From Gammaproteobacteria bacterium (GTDB lineage: Bacteria > Pseudomonadota > Gammaproteobacteria > UBA6429 > Thiohalophilaceae), in NCBI GenBank assembly GCA_023135195.1, contig JAGLTQ010000110.1, positions 1 to 35,489 on the forward strand: a DNA stretch of 35,489 nucleotides, written 5' to 3'. Below the pieces are notes generated by a model. It was not told where the DNA came from, ran no database searches, and saw nothing but the letters and a program-made list of their open reading frames with translations. Shown one piece after another: positions 8,360-34,595 of this stretch; the first letter of the stretch is position 1, and each line of letters begins with the position of its first letter. A program made the position numbers and the translations under genes.

Positions 8360-10147
8360 GTGAGCACCCTCAACAACACAAGTACAACAACTAACACTCA
8401 GGATATATTTGATATCCGTCCTGCTGCTGTTAAAAAATGGGTTAAGCAACTTCCACTAGGCAGTACCGGTGAATCAAGCAAACAACTTTATCATGCGTTA
8501 AGACAAGTTAACCAACAACAAAATTCACTGGAACATCACTTAGAATTTTTAGAATTAATTTCACCTACACTTACATTACTTTATCCCAGGCTGTCGAAAT
8601 ATTTTACCGGTGTATCATTACCGTTAAACACTAAAACGCAAAATGTTATTCATATTACAACTTCTTTATTAACGGAAATTTTACTGGGTTACCAATCTAT
8701 TCTTCGCACATTAGTTACCACAAAACCCTTTGGCTGGAAAAAACCTTTTTCCCTTGCATTGCATCACACCTTTATTTTCTCTTCAAAAATTATAAGCACT
8801 AAACATCTTACCTATCAAGCAAACTCAAAAGGTATCTGGAATGAAATTTTTTGGTGTTATCAACAAGCCACACACTTAAAATTATTAAATAAATGTTTTC
8901 GTAACTGTACTGAAAAACCGGAAAAGACAGCTATCGAATATGAATTTAAAAAACTTTTATTATTGTCACTTCTTTCTGCAAATGATTTAGGTCAAAAAAA
9001 TATGCAAGAAGTGTATAGCTTAATGCCCTTATGGATAAAAAATTCTGATATTTTAATCAAAGAACCCGATGAAAAAGAAACCTGCTTTACACTAAATTTA
9101 TTGAGTGATGTTCCGCCATACCTCATTGGTACACGTAATGACAATACTCGACATACTGTTAATCGACACTATCTTTCAACCCATAAATTAAAAACAATAT
9201 TGTCAAAATATTTAAATGATATTAACGATGATAGTGCTATCAAATTAGGAAAAAATATTTTATCTAAAAAATCTATTCAATCATTATTAAAAACCTGGTC
9301 TCGTAATAACTTAAGAACCGAAGTCCGAAAAGAGGGGGTTGGATTTGTTGATATTATTACAGGTATTAGCGCAATTCATTTTGTCTTAAACAAACAAGAT
9401 CAACCTGCTCATGATGAAGCATCTACCGCTCTACCTGATGAAATTACTGATTTTGAATCTACTCTAACGATTACACCCATCAATCATAGCCCTAACTATG
9501 ACATGTTAAATCTCAATCACTTTTTAGCTAACTCCGATCAAGATGAGGATGTTTGGGAAAAGGTATATGAAAACAACATTAATGCACCACTTTCTGTCGC
9601 AAACTGGACAGAAAGTGGTATCTACAAGGTTTATAATTTTACTAAAAGTATTCATTTAGATTACAACAAAGATGGTTATCGTCTTAGTGTTAATGACAAA
9701 AAAGTTGATAGCCTTAAACATAATGAACTGATTGCTGTTCGTGAACATGCATTAGCACCCTGGACATTAGCACAAATTAAATGGTTACATTTTTCTGAAA
9801 AGGAAGATGTTCAATTTGGTTTACATATTTTAACGCGCCATGTTTTACCTATTCATATTCGTTATCATACCAATGGTACTTTATGTAAACCGCTACCTTG
9901 TTTATTGGGTCTTGATAAAAAAGAGCTCATGTTATTTGTTCCAACATTACCGACTAATCTTAAGGATAAAAAGCTTCAGCTTGAACATCAGAAACAACAT
10001 TCACATCTTCATTTAAAAAATAAAGTTTTAAGTACCCCGGCATTTGATATTTATGAAGTCTTAGAATCACATCACAATGAAACTTCTACTGCAGAAAAAA
10101 TTAAAACTACGACAAAAATAACAGACAATATCTGGGAAATTTTTTAA
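8360..10147 (+). CDS. Large cytoplasmic protein of uncertain function
   Basis: A 595-residue protein with no signal peptide and no convincing membrane helix. It starts with GTG, preceded by AGGT at a workable distance. The opening FDIRPAAVKKWVKQLPLGSTGESSKQLY and the later GIWNEIFWCYQQATHLKLL recall, from memory, a family of large gammaproteobacterial proteins labelled 'molecular chaperone' or PilZ-related. I do not see a clear PilZ RxxxR...DxSxxG signature, so a cyclic-di-GMP role is only a possibility. The middle (about 350-385) is a poorly conserved-looking acidic linker. It stands alone, divergent from mnmG, with a CRP-like box upstream. Codon use resembles its neighbours. Confidence 0.7.
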   Translation: MSTLNNTSTTTNTQDIFDIRPAAVKKWVKQLPLGSTGESSKQLYHALRQVNQQQNSLEHHLEFLELISPTLTLLYPRLSKYFTGVSLPLNTKTQNVIHITTSLLTEILLGYQSILRTLVTTKPFGWKKPFSLALHHTFIFSSKIISTKHLTYQANSKGIWNEIFWCYQQATHLKLLNKCFRNCTEKPEKTAIEYEFKKLLLLSLLSANDLGQKNMQEVYSLMPLWIKNSDILIKEPDEKETCFTLNLLSDVPPYLIGTRNDNTRHTVNRHYLSTHKLKTILSKYLNDINDDSAIKLGKNILSKKSIQSLLKTWSRNNLRTEVRKEGVGFVDIITGISAIHFVLNKQDQPAHDEASTALPDEITDFESTLTITPINHSPNYDMLNLNHFLANSDQDEDVWEKVYENNINAPLSVANWTESGIYKVYNFTKSIHLDYNKDGYRLSVNDKKVDSLKHNELIAVREHALAPWTLAQIKWLHFSEKEDVQFGLHILTRHVLPIHIRYHTNGTLCKPLPCLLGLDKKELMLFVPTLPTNLKDKKLQLEHQKQHSHLHLKNKVLSTPAFDIYEVLESHHNETSTAEKIKTTTKITDNIWEIF

Positions 10148-10176
10148 AAATAAAACACATCCATGTGCAAGAAGAT

Positions 10177-10398
10177 TTACACCAACTTTAAGTCATTTAT
10201 TCCTGATTTTGTTTTATTCATCTTAAAATGCTCCATATCTAATAGATACATTTTTAATCCAATTTCAGCTGATAATTTACTGAAATAAGGTCCTTGTTCA
10301 TCAAGCTCCCTTACAGAAAAAAACCATTCATTATCAACAGAATAAAACCGACCCGTGCGATAGGGGGATTCACGAGTATCTCCTGAACGCTTATTCAC
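10177..10398 (-). CDS. Small DUF6316-like protein
   Basis: A 73-residue protein whose core, SPYRTGRFYSVDNEWFFSVR then EQGPYFSKLSAEIGLKMYLLD, fits the DUF6316 pattern: an arginine-rich start, an aromatic 'W-F/Y-F' strand, a 'GPY/GPF' turn and a helix. No function is known to me. The only in-frame start is a GTG at 10398. A GGAGGA motif is 17 bases upstream, too far to be ideal, and an in-frame stop lies before it, so the start is weakly supported. It converges on the 595-residue gene and diverges from lexA. Confidence 0.6.
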   Translation of the reverse strand: MNKRSGDTRESPYRTGRFYSVDNEWFFSVRELDEQGPYFSKLSAEIGLKMYLLDMEHFKMNKTKSGINDLKLV

Positions 10399-10537
10399 TT
10401 TATTTCTATGTACACTCCTCCATTTACTATCCTTTAGATAATAGCGTTAACCTTGTAATTTCTCCTGTCAGATATAACTGAAAACTTTGTAGAATTTATC
10501 TTACAAAACTTAATTTAAAAAATATTCCAGCAAGCAG

Positions 10538-10592
10538 TTGAAAGTTCTCTTTTTGTACTCTATACTCAATTCAACGAGAACAATTAGAGAAC
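10538..10592 (+). promoter_or_regulatory. lexA promoter with GAAC-N7-GAAC candidate operator
   Basis: TTGAAA (10538-10543), 17 bases, then TATACT (10561-10566) make a near-ideal sigma-70 promoter. Three related hexamers surround it: GTTCTC at 10544-10549, directly after the -35, and GAGAAC at 10576-10581 and 10587-10592, downstream of the -10. The last two form GAAC-AATTAGA-GAAC (10578-10592), a direct repeat spaced by seven bases over the start of transcription and the ribosome site. No E. coli-type CTGT-N8-ACAG box is present. The layout fits LexA self-repression through a different operator. Confidence 0.6.
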
Positions 10593-10595
10593 AAA

Positions 10596-11192
10596 ATGCC
10601 AACACTACTTGAAAAACGCATCTTAAACTTTATACACGCTTTCATCGTCAAACATGGTCACAGTCCGACCTTGGTTGAAATAGGTAAAGCAATGGAAATA
10701 AGTTCGAAAGGGACTATTCACCGATATGTACAAAGTTTGCGAAACAAAGGAATGTTGGCAGCACCCGAGCGTGGCTGGCGTGGAATTCGTCTTGCTGATA
10801 ATGCATTGAGTAACTCCACTACCCTCCCATTGGTAGGACGAATTGCCGCTGGCCAACCTATTGAAGCTATACATGATCATGAAGAAATTAATTTAAGTGA
10901 AATGTTTGTCGGTAAAGATCGTTATGCCTTGCAAATAAAAGGCGACTCGATGATTGATATCGGCATTCTTGATGGCGATATTGTTGTGATTCAACCACAA
11001 AATACTGCTCAATTTGGTGATGTTGTGGTTGCTTTAATTGACGATCAAGAAGCAACATTAAAGCGATTTAAAAAACTAAAAGATGGAAGAATTGAATTAA
11101 GCCCGGAAAATCAGGATTTTGAGCCAATGATTTATGATGCTTCAAGAGTAAAAATTCAGGGCTTACTTGTAGGGCAGTTACGGAGTTATTAA
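10596..11192 (+). CDS. lexA: SOS repressor LexA with a non-E. coli DNA-binding domain
   Basis: The 198-residue protein has an N-terminal winged helix-turn-helix and a C-terminal S24 self-cleavage domain. The cleavage site is Ala85-Gly86 (RIAAGQP), the catalytic serine is Ser118 (KGDSMIDIGILDGD) and the lysine is Lys156 (ATLKRFKK), so RecA-stimulated autoproteolysis should work. The recognition region reads MEISSKGTIHRYVQSLRNKG (33-52) where E. coli LexA has RSPNAAEEHLKALARKG. That predicts a different operator, and the promoter lacks a CTGT-N8-ACAG box. It is monocistronic and converges on gyrB. A second LexA elsewhere in the genome is possible. Confidence 0.92.
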   Translation: MPTLLEKRILNFIHAFIVKHGHSPTLVEIGKAMEISSKGTIHRYVQSLRNKGMLAAPERGWRGIRLADNALSNSTTLPLVGRIAAGQPIEAIHDHEEINLSEMFVGKDRYALQIKGDSMIDIGILDGDIVVIQPQNTAQFGDVVVALIDDQEATLKRFKKLKDGRIELSPENQDFEPMIYDASRVKIQGLLVGQLRSY

Positions 11193-11196
11193 ATTG

Positions 11197-11280
11197 ACTA
11201 CAAAGGACGCGGAGTTTACAAATAAGTAATTATAACAATAAATTTAATTCTTACTTTGTGAGCCTCGCGTCCTTTGTAGT
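11197..11280. repeat. Long palindromic intergenic element between lexA and gyrB
   Basis: The left arm ACTACAAAGGACGCGGAG (11197-11214) pairs with the right arm CTCGCGTCCTTTGTAGT (11264-11280). The pairing continues imperfectly inward through TTACAAATAAG and CTTACTTTGTGAG. The fold lies exactly between the convergent stops of lexA and gyrB and could end transcription from both sides. It resembles the dispersed palindromes of the 'GGACGCGGAG' kind. A related but not identical element is at 20293-20400. Confidence 0.65.
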
Positions 11281-11307
11281 TATAAATATTATATATCTAA
11301 ACAGTTT

Positions 11308-27380: not shown

Positions 27381-28095
27381 GAAATAAAATAGCTGTTTTT
27401 GTACTTCTATTATTTTTTCGCTATCAGTAAAAGCTGAAGAACTTCGTATTGCGGTTGCATCAAATTTTTATTCGACATTAAGTCTAATTAAGAATCAGTT
27501 TGAAGATGTTTATGATGATAAATTAATTATTATCAAAGGTTCAACAGGTAAGTTATATGCACAAATAAAGCATGGTGCGCCTTATGATGTTTATATGGCT
27601 GCGGATATAAAAAGGCCATATCTACTAGAGCAACAACAGTTAGTTTTAAAAAATAGTCGTTATATGTATGCAAGTGGTTAACTGGCGTAGTGGTCTAAAA
27701 AATATAAAGGTGATGTTTTAAAGCAATTAAAAAAAGGTGCATTTAATAAGCTGGCAATCACCAACCCTAAAACAGCACCATATGGTTTTGCTGCTAAGGA
27801 AGTTTTATCTAAAATGGAATTAGAAAATAAAGTAAAATCAAAAATGGTTTATGGAGAAAATATTGCACAAACATTCCAGTTTATTCAATCGGGCAGCGCA
27901 GACCTAGGCTTCGTGGCATTATCATATGTAAAGCAAACTAATCACCAATATTGGAAGGTACCTGAAAATATATACACCACTAAAACAACAAATGGTGATC
28001 TTAAAGAGGTCTAAGAAGAAAGAGCTGGCAATTAAATTTATGGATTTTATAAAAATATAAAAGAAATGATTAAGAATCAGGGTTACAGCATTTAA
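27377..28095 (+). pseudogene. modA: Decayed molybdate-binding protein gene
   Basis: Conceptual translation gives a ModA-like periplasmic protein (ELRIAVASNFYSTLSLIKNQ, IIIKGSTGKLYAQI, YDVYMAADIKRPYLLEQQQL, AITNPKTAPYGFAAKEVL, SADLGFVALSYV). It cannot be read through. A one-base loss in the T run at 27413-27418 separates the signal peptide from the body. Stops at 27679-27681 and 27688-27690 replace residues in the ASGxLAxWS motif. A stop or frameshift lies at about 28010, and another follows near 28050 before the C-terminal NQGYSI. The number and kind of lesions show loss, not a sequencing error. Confidence 0.9.
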
Positions 28096-28597
28096 TGCTG
28101 GGTTAATTCAATTAGACCCCATCATCGTCACATTAAAGCTGGCATTAGTGACGACATTTATTTTATTGATTATTGGCACACCATTAGCGTGGTGGCTTTC
28201 TAATACTCAAACGAAATACAAAACACCCATTGAAGCCGTTGTCGCATTACCCCTTGTTTTACCTCCTACCGTGTTAGGCTTTTATTTGCTGGTTGCATTA
28301 AGTCCAGAAGGTATTGTTGGTCAGCTTTGGTCTTATATTAGTGATGATCCATTAACATTCAGTTTTAGTGGTATTGTCATTGGTTCAGCAATATATTCCC
28401 TGCCTTTTAGTGTGGCCTTAATGATCGGTGGCAATATTCCAGGAATAACCCAGGTATTATCGATAACTATTTATGATCATGTTGAAGCTCTGGAATATTC
28501 TGCTGCGCATATTTATTCAGCCGCGTTACTGATTTTCTCGTTTGTCGTCTTGTTGATTGCTTATATGGCTAACCGCAAAGTAAATATTCGTTTATGA
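28095..28597 (+). pseudogene. modB: Molybdate permease gene with start frameshift and lost EAA loop
   Basis: The ATG overlapping the end of modA runs into a stop after three codons. The real frame (LIQLDPIIVTLKLALVTTF) begins one base out of register at 28103. From there 165 codons read on: WWLSNTQTKYKTPIEAVVAL, PLVLPPTVLGFYLLVAL and then IGSAIYSLPF. IYSLPF is joined directly to SVALMIGGNIPG near 28410. In intact ModB about 55-60 residues lie between those blocks, including the EAA loop that docks ModC and the GEFG segment. An in-frame deletion has removed them, so the channel cannot couple to the ATPase. Confidence 0.82.
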
Positions 28598-29671
28598 ATA
28601 TTCAATTTAATTATAAAAAGTCATTTGCTAACTTCGAATTAGATTGTGCTTTTTCAATACCAGCAGCAGGCGTAACGATACTGTTTGGTCCATCAGGTTG
28701 TGGTAAATCTACATTATTGAATTGTATTGCTGGTTTAGAAAAAAGCGATGCTGCTTACGCCAAAGTCGGCAATGTGATCTTTGATGATAAAGAAAAGAAT
28801 ATTCATTTACCCGCGTATCAACGTAAAGTGGGGTATGTATTTCAGGATAGTCGTTTATTCCCTCATATGAATGTTATTAACAAGTTGCTTTATGGATTTA
28901 AACGAGTAAAAAAATCAGAGCACGTTTTAGAAACAGAAGAAATTATAAAAAAGTTTGCGCTAGAAAAATTATTCGCTTTTTATCCACATCAACTTTCAGG
29001 TGGACAAAAACAACGAGTGGCATTAGCCAGAGCACTTTTATCAAAGCCCAGTATGTTGATTCTTGATGAACCATTATCTGCATTAGATTATGCATCGAAA
29101 CAAGAACTCTTGCCGTATCTGCAAACAATGTGTAAAGAATTTTCCATTCCTATTATTTATGTCAGTCATGATTTAAAAGAAATACTGCAGCTGGGCGATA
29201 GCATTGTCTTAATGGAAAATGGAAAATGGAAAAGTTATTGATAAAGGAGATTTAGTTGAACTTTGTGTAACGCAACCTTTATTAACGGAGCAGGAAGGAG
29301 CGAGCTTTATTCTTAAAGGCGAAGTATTAAAGGTAAATGAAGAAGAAAAAATATCAACCGTTAACTGTGAGGGATATGAACTGTATTTATCGGGAATGCT
29401 TTTAACAGAAAAACAACAAGCTCGCATTCTAGTGCATGCGAAAGATGTTAGTTTAACGTTGGATAAAGCAGAGCACAGTAGTATTTTAAATATATTACCG
29501 GTTGAAGTAAGTAAAATTCATGAAGAACAAAAGGGTAAACATGTCATTGAATGCTTATTAGGAAAAACAAAAATATTGTCAGTGATTAGTATCCGATCTT
29601 TGCATAAACTGAATATAAAACAGGGTTTGAGGTTGTTTGCACAATTTAAAGCAACGGCAATGGTGAAATAA
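28594..29671 (+). pseudogene. modC: Molybdate transport ATPase gene broken by a 7-bp repeat expansion
   Basis: The ATPase domain is intact in the first 208 or so codons: Walker A FGPSGCGKST, Q-loop VFQDSRLF, signature LSGGQKQR, Walker B LILDEPLSALD and H-loop YVSHD. The frame breaks at 29212-29232, where ATGGAAA is present three times; with two copies the protein reads IVLMENGKVIDKGDLVEL without a break. With three, translation stops at 29241. The remainder (frame of 29219-29671) encodes the molybdate-binding Mop domain (SSILNILPVEVSK). The intact length would be about 357 residues. The ATPase half could still be made, but its partners modA and modB are also lost. Confidence 0.85.
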
Positions 29672-29680
29672 TAAATCTTT

Positions 29681-30232
29681 ATGGAAATTGTTTTATTAAG
29701 ACACGGGAAACCTGAGATAGAATTAAAAGGAAATGTTAATGCTACAGAATTTAAACAGCTTGTAATTAAATATGAACAGTCAGGTATACAAGATTTTCCA
29801 CCTAATAACTTAAAGAATCGTTTTAAATTTCACTATGTTGTATGCAGTAATTTAGAACGCTCACTTCAATCAGCCAAAGTTCTTGGTTTTAAACAAATTC
29901 ATTCAACCGAAAGTCTTTTTGCCGAAACCAGTATTCCTCATTTTGATCAAACATTGTTTAAAGTTCCGGTCATGTTCTGGTTAATTGGCTTAAGGATAAT
30001 GTGGATCTTTGGATTTAATAAAAATGGGGAATCTTTTTCGCAAGCAAAACATCGAAGCAAACAAGCAGCGGAAAAATTGATGTTATTGTCACAAGAAAAT
30101 GAAAAAATTATTGTGGTTGGTCATGGCTTAATAAATATGTTGATTGGCAGACAGTTACAAATAAATGGATGGAATAGAAAACGAACAAAAGCTAAGAAAT
30201 ATTGGAAATTTATTTCGTATACTATTAATTGA
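29681..30232 (+). CDS. Histidine phosphatase superfamily protein
   Basis: A 183-residue protein with the phosphoglycerate-mutase-like catalytic set: LLRHGKP with His8, Arg60 (NLERS), Glu82 (LFAET) and a second histidine in VVGHGLIN (His148). The family removes phosphate from sugars, nucleotides or proteins through a phosphohistidine; the substrate cannot be told here. A hydrophobic stretch (VMFWLIGLRIMWIFGF, about 97-112) in the lid region is unusual and might bind membrane or a greasy ligand. It follows the modC remnant by 9 bp. Confidence 0.82.
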   Translation: MEIVLLRHGKPEIELKGNVNATEFKQLVIKYEQSGIQDFPPNNLKNRFKFHYVVCSNLERSLQSAKVLGFKQIHSTESLFAETSIPHFDQTLFKVPVMFWLIGLRIMWIFGFNKNGESFSQAKHRSKQAAEKLMLLSQENEKIIVVGHGLINMLIGRQLQINGWNRKRTKAKKYWKFISYTIN

Positions 30233-30285
30233 TTATGCAAGATTCTTAATATTCATTTTTCGCTATTCTCAACTATAGAAAGAAC

Positions 30286-30330
30286 GCACCAAATTGGGGC
30301 GATAATGCTTCATGGGCACCTTAATGGTGC
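30286..30330 (+). promoter_or_regulatory. Two NtrC-type enhancer sites upstream of glnN
   Basis: GCACCAAATTGGGGC (30286-30300) and GCACCTTAATGGTGC (30316-30330) match the NtrC dyad GCAC(C/T)-N5-GGTGC; the second is a perfect dyad, the first has one mismatch. Their centres are 30 bp apart, about three helix turns. They lie about 137 and 167 bp before the predicted sigma-54 start site, close to the arrangement before E. coli glnA. Confidence 0.75.
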
Positions 30331-30433
30331 GTTAACATATTGATAATAAGCACTTTATTATAGAAAATATTCTAACTTGCTGATTTATATAGAATATATA
30401 TTATTGAAATAGGCCTTAATTGAAATGAATCAG

Positions 30434-30449
30434 TGGCACAAATGTTGCT
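30434..30449 (+). promoter_or_regulatory. Sigma-54 promoter of glnN
   Basis: TGGCAC (30434-30439), five bases and TTGCT (30445-30449) match the sigma-54 consensus TGGCAC-N5-TTGCW with the invariant GG and GC correctly spaced. Transcription would begin near 30460, leaving a leader of about 120 nt. With the NtrC sites this explains the 347-bp gap at 30233-30579, which holds no gene. Confidence 0.8.
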
Positions 30450-30579
30450 CACTAGATAGGCAAAATGTTCAAAAAGACACTTTACTGCACAATAACGTAG
30501 TAAAATTGCCACATTAGAACAACCAAATTTATGAAGAATTTATTTTAAAACTTTGATTATAAGAAAGAAGGTATATGAA

Positions 30580-32751
30580 ATGAACGGAAATGCGTCCCGC
30601 TTAAAAGCGGTTGAAAATATCACCAAACAAGAAGCTAAGTCACTTGATAAAACAGAGTCTTTAGACGATATCTGGGCAATAGACGTTTTCAATTTAGCTA
30701 AAATGGAATCAACACTTTCTAAAGGTGCATTTGCAAGCATCAAACAGACGATTCAAACAGGTGATGCTTTAGATTTAGATACTGCTGAAGAAATTGCAGT
30801 AGCAATGAAAGATTGGGCATTAGCAAAAGGTGTTAAGTTTTTTTCACATATTTTCTATCCAATGACTAATGTAACCGCTGAAAAACATGATGCATTTATT
30901 GTAACGGATTTTGATGGTGAAGCGATTTCAAAATTTGATGGCGCTTTATTGATTAAAGGTGAACCAGATGGTTCATCATTCCCTAACGGTGGTATTCGTG
31001 AAACAAATGCAGCGCGTGGTTATACTGCATGGGATCCAAGTAGCCCTGCTTATGTTATGCATACAGAAAATGGTGCGACATTAATGATTCCATGTGTATT
31101 TGCATCATGGACGGGTGAAGCGTTAGATAAAAAGATTCCACTACTTCGATCTAATGCGGCAATGAACACAGCTGCACAAAAAGTTTTAAACTTAATGGGC
31201 GAAGGTGAAGTTGCTCCTTTAAATTCAAGTTGTGGTGCTGAGCAAGAATATTTCCTGGTTGATGAAACGTTCGCAAATGCGCGTCCAGACTTATTATTAG
31301 CAGGTCGTACTTTATTTGGTGCAGCACCAGCGAAAGGTCAGGAATTTGATGATCATTACTTCGGCGCTATTCCATTACGTGTACAAGTTTACATGCAAGA
31401 TGCAGAAGATCGTTTATATCGTTTAGGTATCCCAGCTAAAACACATCATAATGAAGTTGCTCCAGGCCAATTTGAAATTGCTCCTTATTTTGAAGCGGCA
31501 AACATTGCCGCCGATCACCAACAATTGTTAATGACGGTTTTACAAAACACAGCAAAAGAACATGGTTTTATTTGTTTAATGCATGAAAAACCATTTGCTG
31601 GAATTAATGGTTCAGGTAAGCACGTTAACTGGTCGGTAGGTAACTCAACACAAGGTAACTTACTTGATCCCGGTCATACTCCGGAAGAAAACTTAAATTT
31701 CTTATTATTCTGTGGTGCAGTTATTCGTGGTGTACATAAATACGGCCCTTTACTTCGTGCAGTAATCGCATCAGCAAGTAACGATCATCGTTTAGGTGCT
31801 AATGAAGCGCCACCAGCAATTCTTTCTGTTTACTTAGGTGCACAGTTAGAAAAAGTATTTGAAGATATCCAGGCAGGTAAATTAGCACCAACTGATGACG
31901 GTGGTGACATGGATTTAGGTTTATCACAAATCCTGAATTTCAAGCGTGATTCAGGTGATCGTAATAGAACATCTCCATTTGCTTTCACAGGTAATCGTTT
32001 TGAATTTCGTGCAGTAGGTTCTTCGCAATCTGTATCAGGACCATTAGTTGCGATGAATACAATGTTAGCGGATTCTCTGGAGTGGATTGCGGTTAAGCTT
32101 GAAGCAGCATTAAAGGATAATGATCGTACGGCAGCAGTTATTGTAGTACTAAAAGAGCTCATGTCATTACACGGTAACGTAGTATTTGGTGGTGATGGTT
32201 ATTCTTCTGAATGGCATGAAATGGCGGTTAAAGAACGTGGTTTGAAAAACTTGCCAACAACTGCTGATGCGCTTCCATACTTACAAGATGCAGAAATTGT
32301 TGAGCTCTTTAAAACAACGGGTGTGTTAACGCCAGTTGAATTAGAAAGTCGTTATGAAATTTATGCTGAGCAATATATTTTATCAATTGAAGTTGAAGCT
32401 AAGCTCGTTATTGATATGGCGAAGACTTTAATTTACCCGGCGGCAATTAGTTATCTTTCAAACCTTTCAGAAGCAGCGTCTGGTATGAAAGAAATGGGTG
32501 TTGATTTAGATAACAGTACAGCGACAATCGTTGCAGCAAGAGCAAATGCTATGATGGCAGCAGTGAATGAACTTATTGAAGCATCAGCGAAAGAAGATTT
32601 TGCTTCAACAAATGATCACATGCAATATTGTGCAAATGATATTCGTGCATTGATGGATAAAGTGCGTGATCATGCTGATACGCTTGAAGCTGAAGTAGCA
32701 GATAAATTATGGCCACTACCTAAGTATCAGGAAATGCTTTTCATTAAATAA
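30580..32751 (+). CDS. glnN: Glutamine synthetase type III
   Basis: The 723-residue protein is the long GSIII class, which makes glutamine from glutamate, ammonia and ATP. Length and motifs set it apart from the ~470-residue GSI: KFFSHIFYPMTNVTAEKHDAF, GSSFPNGGIRETNAARGYTAWDPSSPAY, NSSCGAEQEYFLVDE, HHNEVAPGQFEIAPYF, GINGSGKHVNWSVG and NRFEFRAVGSSQSV. I start at the ATG that follows AAGAAGG by eight bases; an in-frame TTG at 30553 has no such support. GSIII has no adenylylation loop, so control would rest on transcription. The upstream NtrC sites and sigma-54 promoter suit induction under nitrogen limitation. Codon use matches the window. Confidence 0.95.
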   Translation: MNGNASRLKAVENITKQEAKSLDKTESLDDIWAIDVFNLAKMESTLSKGAFASIKQTIQTGDALDLDTAEEIAVAMKDWALAKGVKFFSHIFYPMTNVTAEKHDAFIVTDFDGEAISKFDGALLIKGEPDGSSFPNGGIRETNAARGYTAWDPSSPAYVMHTENGATLMIPCVFASWTGEALDKKIPLLRSNAAMNTAAQKVLNLMGEGEVAPLNSSCGAEQEYFLVDETFANARPDLLLAGRTLFGAAPAKGQEFDDHYFGAIPLRVQVYMQDAEDRLYRLGIPAKTHHNEVAPGQFEIAPYFEAANIAADHQQLLMTVLQNTAKEHGFICLMHEKPFAGINGSGKHVNWSVGNSTQGNLLDPGHTPEENLNFLLFCGAVIRGVHKYGPLLRAVIASASNDHRLGANEAPPAILSVYLGAQLEKVFEDIQAGKLAPTDDGGDMDLGLSQILNFKRDSGDRNRTSPFAFTGNRFEFRAVGSSQSVSGPLVAMNTMLADSLEWIAVKLEAALKDNDRTAAVIVVLKELMSLHGNVVFGGDGYSSEWHEMAVKERGLKNLPTTADALPYLQDAEIVELFKTTGVLTPVELESRYEIYAEQYILSIEVEAKLVIDMAKTLIYPAAISYLSNLSEAASGMKEMGVDLDNSTATIVAARANAMMAAVNELIEASAKEDFASTNDHMQYCANDIRALMDKVRDHADTLEAEVADKLWPLPKYQEMLFIK

Positions 32752-34406: not shown

Positions 34407-34595
34407 TTATTCATTTTCACTTGCAATATGAATTTGAACGGTATCATTTTCTATTGAAATAAAGATGTTAATGGGCTGACAACAGACCTGGCAGTCTTCA
34501 ATGTATTTTTGCTCTAAAATAGAGCAATCAATAATGAGCTGTATTTCTTCACCACAGTAAGGACAATTCAGGTTATGAGTTTGAAGTAAATCCAT
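34407..34595 (-). CDS. CPXCG-motif zinc-ribbon protein
   Basis: A 62-residue protein with two CxxC knuckles: NCPYCGEEIQ near residue 11 and DCQVCCQPINIFI near residue 35. This is the small 'CPXCG motif-containing cysteine-rich protein' family, likely binding one zinc. No function is established in the family as I know it. It faces the hydrolase gene and has fbp upstream on the same strand, but the fbp terminator lies between, so it should have its own promoter. Confidence 0.85.
   Translation of the reverse strand: MDLLQTHNLNCPYCGEEIQLIIDCSILEQKYIEDCQVCCQPINIFISIENDTVQIHIASENE

Follow-up and report, generated by a model that had tools for sequence, protein, structure and literature searches.

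A candidate NtrC/sigma-54 control region in front of a type III glutamine synthetase gene in a gammaproteobacterium, and its spread in Proteobacteria

Nitrogen control in Proteobacteria is both transcriptional, through NtrBC, and posttranslational, through reversible adenylylation of type I glutamine synthetase (GSI) by GlnE. Escherichia coli glnA is the established paradigm of activation by NtrC and sigma-54 under nitrogen limitation. Type III glutamine synthetase (GSIII) was listed in a 2022 review for cyanobacteria, Bacteroides, and some protozoa (PMC9397018). Cyanobacterial GSIII, encoded by glnN, is a nitrogen starvation enzyme found beside GSI and controlled by NtcA (PMC6316151; for Synechococcus, PMC4923085), and GSIII is cited as the sole glutamine synthetase of Pseudanabaena PCC 6903 (Crespo 1998, cited in PMC6316151). 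A comparative genomic study of the proteobacterial NtrC regulon names glnA (GSI) as the core target, and the accessible text of that study does not mention GSIII as an NtrC target (PMC5343134). Full-text searches of freely readable papers found no description of NtrC/sigma-54 control of GSIII in Proteobacteria. The parts of the arrangement are known; their combination and its spread appear to be undescribed in the literature searched.

The window, i.e., the whole stretch of 35,489 bases that was analyzed, comes from a marine gammaproteobacterium and contains the following features within and in front of its GSIII gene.

30285-30301, no strand: putative distal NtrC dyad CGCACCAAATTGGGGCG, 17.3 bits, the second-best NtrC site of the window, center 30293 (-167)
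30315-30331, no strand: putative proximal NtrC dyad GGCACCTTAATGGTGCG, 17.6 bits, the best NtrC site of the window, center 30323 (-137)
30433-30449, + strand: putative sigma-54 -24/-12 promoter GTGGCACAAATGTTGCT, 17.5 bits, the best sigma-54 site of the window
30460-30579, + strand: predicted untranslated leader of 120 nt, its start near 30460 placed from the -12 element
30567-30571, + strand: ribosome-binding site GAAGG, read from the sequence, 8 nt ahead of the ATG and kept across the genus
30580-32751, + strand: glnN-type GSIII glutamine synthetase, 723 amino acids, PF12437 and PF18318 above cutoff, match to PDB 3o6x with an E value of 4e-178

The position weight matrices for sigma-54 and NtrC sites were built from the standard consensus, with approximate frequencies. 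E. coli K-12 glnA served as the positive control, and there the matrices placed the start at -73 from the ATG and the NtrC centers at -108 and -140, the known values. Over all 35,489 bases and both strands of the window, the runner-up scores were 12.9 bits for sigma-54 and 12.7 bits for NtrC. A sequence-only reading of this DNA had proposed a complete NtrC/sigma-54 control region before GSIII, and the scan bears it out, with the best sigma-54 site and the two best NtrC dyads of the window lying together and the dyads 30 bp apart, center to center. GTGGCACAAATGTTGCT conforms to TGGCAC-N5-TTGCW, CGCACCAAATTGGGGCG has a single mismatch, in its right half, and both predicted dyads fall within the 80 to 200 bp upstream of the start that were taken as the range for NtrC dyads. 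Dinucleotide shuffles of the whole window yielded 0.35 sigma-54 and 0.1 NtrC sites of at least 17 bits per window; because such sites are so rare in shuffles, the ordered set is not a product of chance, an origin that is also rejected by the control open reading frames (ORFs) and the conservation described below.

The proposed 120-nt leader and a start near 30460 agree with the position predicted from the -12 element. No Rfam family matched the leader at the gathering threshold and its length differs among relatives, and a riboswitch or known RNA was rejected. A sigma-70-like match (10 of 12) at 30332-30361 could provide basal transcription, though shuffled sequence yields matches of this kind at least as often. 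The third NtrC-like score of the window (12.7 bits) belongs to a palindrome, TGCTCTAAAATAGAGCA, at 34510-34526 between two gene ends, for which a terminator is a likelier reading than an NtrC site.

The gene encodes the long GSIII. Membership was defined by N- and C-terminal domains above their curated cutoffs in a subunit of ∼730 residues, and the 723-residue product scores 217.9 bits for PF12437 (cutoff, 25) and 120.3 bits for PF18318 (cutoff, 22.7) and matches the solved GSIII end to end (3o6x residues 22-729). GSI (TIGR00653) was rejected at 59.6 bits against a cutoff of 429, as was the “type III” GlnT-like ligase TIGR03105, a different family of the same name, at 51.1 bits against 469.6. 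The adenylylation motif LYDLP is absent from the window GSIII and present in the GSI of the same genome. The claim of the sequence-only reading that GSIII has no adenylylation control is a probable reading of that absence.

The genome (2.7 Mb, 232 contigs, 86% complete) encodes the proteins that such a promoter would need, and ntrC, ntrB, and rpoN, whose joint presence was the membership criterion, were all found. Canonical ntrC lies on contig C81 at 9934-11307 (743.6 bits; cutoff, 558.6), and its product is 67% identical to E. coli NtrC, with a matching helix-turn-helix. ntrB adjoins ntrC and is itself preceded by a like NtrC dyad, TGCACCATGTTGGTGCA; rpoN is on C219. A lack of ntrC or rpoN, which would have spoken against the control region, is thus rejected. 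The GSIII gene does not adjoin ntrBC in this genome.

The cis elements, the GSIII gene, ntrB, ntrC, rpoN, glnE, and GSI are present. The region is very probably an NtrC-dependent sigma-54 promoter that turns on a second, nonadenylylated glutamine synthetase when nitrogen is short, and, on the pattern of E. coli glnA, we infer NtrC binding, the start site, and the nitrogen response as follows. Under nitrogen limitation, NtrB would phosphorylate NtrC, whose oligomers would bind both dyads, loop to the RNA polymerase-sigma-54 waiting at 30433-30449, and open the promoter. Transcription would start near 30460 and proceed through the leader into GSIII. GSI, which has a like promoter in relatives, could be shut by GlnE adenylylation, and GSIII would add ammonium-assimilating capacity that, because it lacks the adenylylation motif, would be controlled mainly by transcription.

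The sequence-only reading hinted that the placing of GSIII under the nitrogen circuit is a peculiarity of this genome. This part is not supported, as the same region precedes GSIII in numerous genera of the Gammaproteobacteria and also in some proteobacteria outside that class. GSIII itself occurs in 11 of 369 sampled gammaproteobacterial genomes (∼3%), including that of the window. A scan of named genomes gave 80 GSIII loci, and the upstream regions of 73 proteobacterial GSIII genes were compared with those of 341 control ORFs from the same loci and with shuffles. Sigma-54 sites of at least 12 bits were upstream of 40 of the 73 GSIII genes, versus 9 of the 341 controls and 0.5 of 73 in shuffles, and sigma-54 and NtrC sites both reached 12 bits before 16 of 73 GSIII genes, 4 of 341 controls, and none of the shuffles. 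Six loci labeled Myxococcales, Deltaproteobacteria, or Actinobacteria had none of these sites upstream of GSIII. A rapid GSIII tree, whose deep forks are weak and whose outgroup is very distant, shows the sigma-54 box scattered through almost the entire proteobacterial part, and the simplest reading is that the box is old in this GSIII branch and was inherited with the gene. Because the same region recurs across so many genera, it probably traveled with, or predates, this branch.

In many lineages, the best NtrC sites that accompany a sigma-54 box have their centers clustered between about -128 and -150. No recognizable NtrC dyad was found nearby in 31 of the 71 GSIII upstream regions with a sigma-54 box of at least 8 bits, and these may depend on a different activator or on an enhancer farther away. 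That the window promoter, too, is a real sigma-54 promoter answering mainly to some other enhancer-binding protein, with little contribution from NtrC, would fit these dyad-free regions and the many NtrC-like proteins encoded by the genomes (72 among the matches listed for that of the window). It is nevertheless improbable, as no other NtrC site in the 35 kb scores as high as these two dyads, their spacing is that of glnA, and other lineages have NtrC sites at a like distance from the start.

Gene order offers an easy route by which GSIII could come under NtrC, namely, a place inside the glnA-ntrBC cluster. The order is glnA-GSIII-ntrB-ntrC in Psychromonas (loci L049, L055, L059, L066, and L072), where GSIII has its own sigma-54 box and no NtrC dyad within 1.2 kb. 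Several other genomes have the order GSIII-glnA, while L043 has GSIII followed by ntrB-ntrC without glnA and L047 has ntrB-ntrC-GSIII.

Two divergent GSIII genes each were seen in isolate BB4 and in UBA3090 (L045 and L079; L085 and L086), and neither a sigma-54 nor an NtrC site was visible at one of the BB4 copies. Acaryochloris plasmid pMB03 (L118) carries, next to an IS4 transposase, an unannotated GSIII in several pieces that has 65% identity to that of the window and is probably a broken gene.

Within the genus, GSIII was found in four of the eight genomes searched (G000, the genome of the window, and G001, G003, and G004) and in none of 29 other genomes sampled from the family. These four genomes and two additional relatives all retain the -24/-12 box; an alignment of the six shows no variation in TGGCA and TTGCT, while the DNA around them is poorly alignable. 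A recognizable proximal dyad is present in five of the six, including G003, G004, CSMAG_298, and SRR5242447. The exception is the close relative G001, which keeps the sigma-54 box and only degraded NtrC sites. At the distal position, G003 has a weaker site at -168 (12.2 bits) and others have GCACC half-sites. Leaders range from 37 to >200 nt in relatives.

These variations bear on the possibility that the promoter is a relic, with GSIII either transcribed by way of sigma-70 or barely expressed, and of little importance to a cell that has GSI. GSIII is missing from half of the genus and the G001 dyads are degraded, as such a reading would have it, but the window GSIII has an intact frame and is 90 to 96% identical to those of G003, G001, and G004, the -24/-12 box was kept while the flanking DNA changed, and some genomes appear to depend on GSIII alone (see below). 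A relic is therefore very unlikely.

The neighborhood of GSIII is alike in the window and G003, with mod genes, a phosphatase gene, a chalcone isomerase-like gene, and fbp; in G004, some of these genes are found close to GSIII but in a different order, and in G001 it follows modC and the contig ends within it. The neighbors of the window GSIII are 80 to 90% identical to the corresponding stretch of G003 and G001, which places the contig in the genus, and bin contamination was rejected. G001 lacks the phosphatase-like gene that separates modC from GSIII in the window (29681-30232), and its GSIII comes right after modC. The molybdate transport genes modABC (window 27450-29671) look decayed: the modA frame is broken, modB is short by ∼57 codons (∼170 bp missing at 28407 compared with G003 and G001), and modC is split by a frameshift near 29230, while modB and modC are intact in G003 and G001. 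The left part of the window (465-21757) carries genes typical of a chromosome origin (parAB, mnmG, gyrB, recF, dnaN, dnaA, yidC, and mnmE), and GSIII therefore lies ∼13 kb from dnaA.

Whether GSIII replaces or backs up GSI had been left open by the sequence-only reading, which called for a search of the genome for a separate GSI glnA, glnE, and ntrBC. All were found, glnA as its 3' end. The last 115 codons of glnA stand in frame at the end of C81, in the usual order glnA-ntrB-ntrC, and carry the adenylylation motif DLYDLPAEE. The missing part falls off the contig, and the GSI promoter is thus not readable in this assembly. glnE is intact on C88, and GSI glnA is present in all of G001 to G008. 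Because the glnA 3' end, glnE, and ntrBC are present, GSIII is a second glutamine synthetase that backs up GSI. Replacement of GSI in this genome, for which the truncated glnA of the assembly might be cited, is hardly credible when the fragment runs off a contig end in frame, with its adenylylation motif and ntrBC behind it, and when glnE is intact and GSI universal in G001 to G008.

In four genomes of the genus, the NtrC center before GSI glnA is at -137 or -138, and the offset before the window GSIII is -137. A sigma-54 promoter was seen before GSI glnA in G002, G004, G005, and G007, and none was found within 500 bases upstream of glnA in G003, whose GSIII promoter is intact. An NtrC-like dyad, CGTACTAAAATAGTGCG, is kept upstream of the G003 glnA (L025, 2250-2710), an observation from one metagenome bin.

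Replacement of GSI by GSIII seems to have happened, but in lineages other than that of the window. Among 55 GSIII-bearing genomes tabulated for GSI and glnE, 41 have both, none has GSI without glnE, 4 (all metagenome bins) keep glnE without a full GSI, and 10 have neither (L043, L060, L065, L068, L069, L075, L078, L090, L100, and L104). Three of these ten are isolates (Leucothrix arctica IMCC9719, Colwellia sp. E2M01, and Colwellia echini A3) and seven are metagenome bins; all ten keep canonical ntrC. Losses of GSI and glnE are strongly associated by raw count (Fisher P value of 3e-8) but not significantly so over the few phylogenetically independent pairs (P value of 0.25), and the fewest changes on the tree are five for glnE and nine for GSI. 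Several of the ten (L043, L060, L068, and L104) have clear NtrC dyads ahead of GSIII, and most Colwellia have only the sigma-54 box, without a clear dyad.

On a broader reading, to which we give about even chances, GSIII controlled by NtrC and sigma-54 would be an old proteobacterial module that has more than once allowed its hosts to do without GSI and GlnE. Several lineages (Leucothrix, Colwellia, some Thiotrichaceae, and others) would have been left with Ntr-controlled GSIII as the sole glutamine synthetase and without adenylylation control; the genus of the window would represent a stage with both enzymes, at which the GSI of G003 would already be without its sigma-54 promoter. Widespread GSIII under NtrC, together with genomes that have NtrC but neither GSI nor GlnE, provides natural experiments on the need for adenylylation.

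The closest described system is E. coli glnAp2, where a consensus sigma-54 promoter is likewise preceded by two NtrC dyads separated by about three turns of the helix and is served by an orthologous NtrC. The likeness to the E. coli glnA layout that had been noticed in the sequence holds for the architecture and not for the distances: the enzyme is GSIII rather than GSI, the dyads are ∼29 bp further upstream (-137/-167 versus -108/-140), and the leader is 47 nt longer (120 versus 73 nt). The proteobacterial NtrC regulon as described in the accessible text of PMC5343134 also has NtrC controlling a glutamine synthetase gene, there GSI and here, by prediction, GSIII. GSIII of Bacteroides fragilis (PDB 3o6x) belongs to the same enzyme family over its whole length; sequence and host are distant. 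Cyanobacterial glnN resembles the window GSIII in encoding a second glutamine synthetase beside GSI, induced by nitrogen starvation there and predicted to be so here, but it is controlled by NtcA, whereas the window GSIII would be controlled by NtrC and sigma-54.
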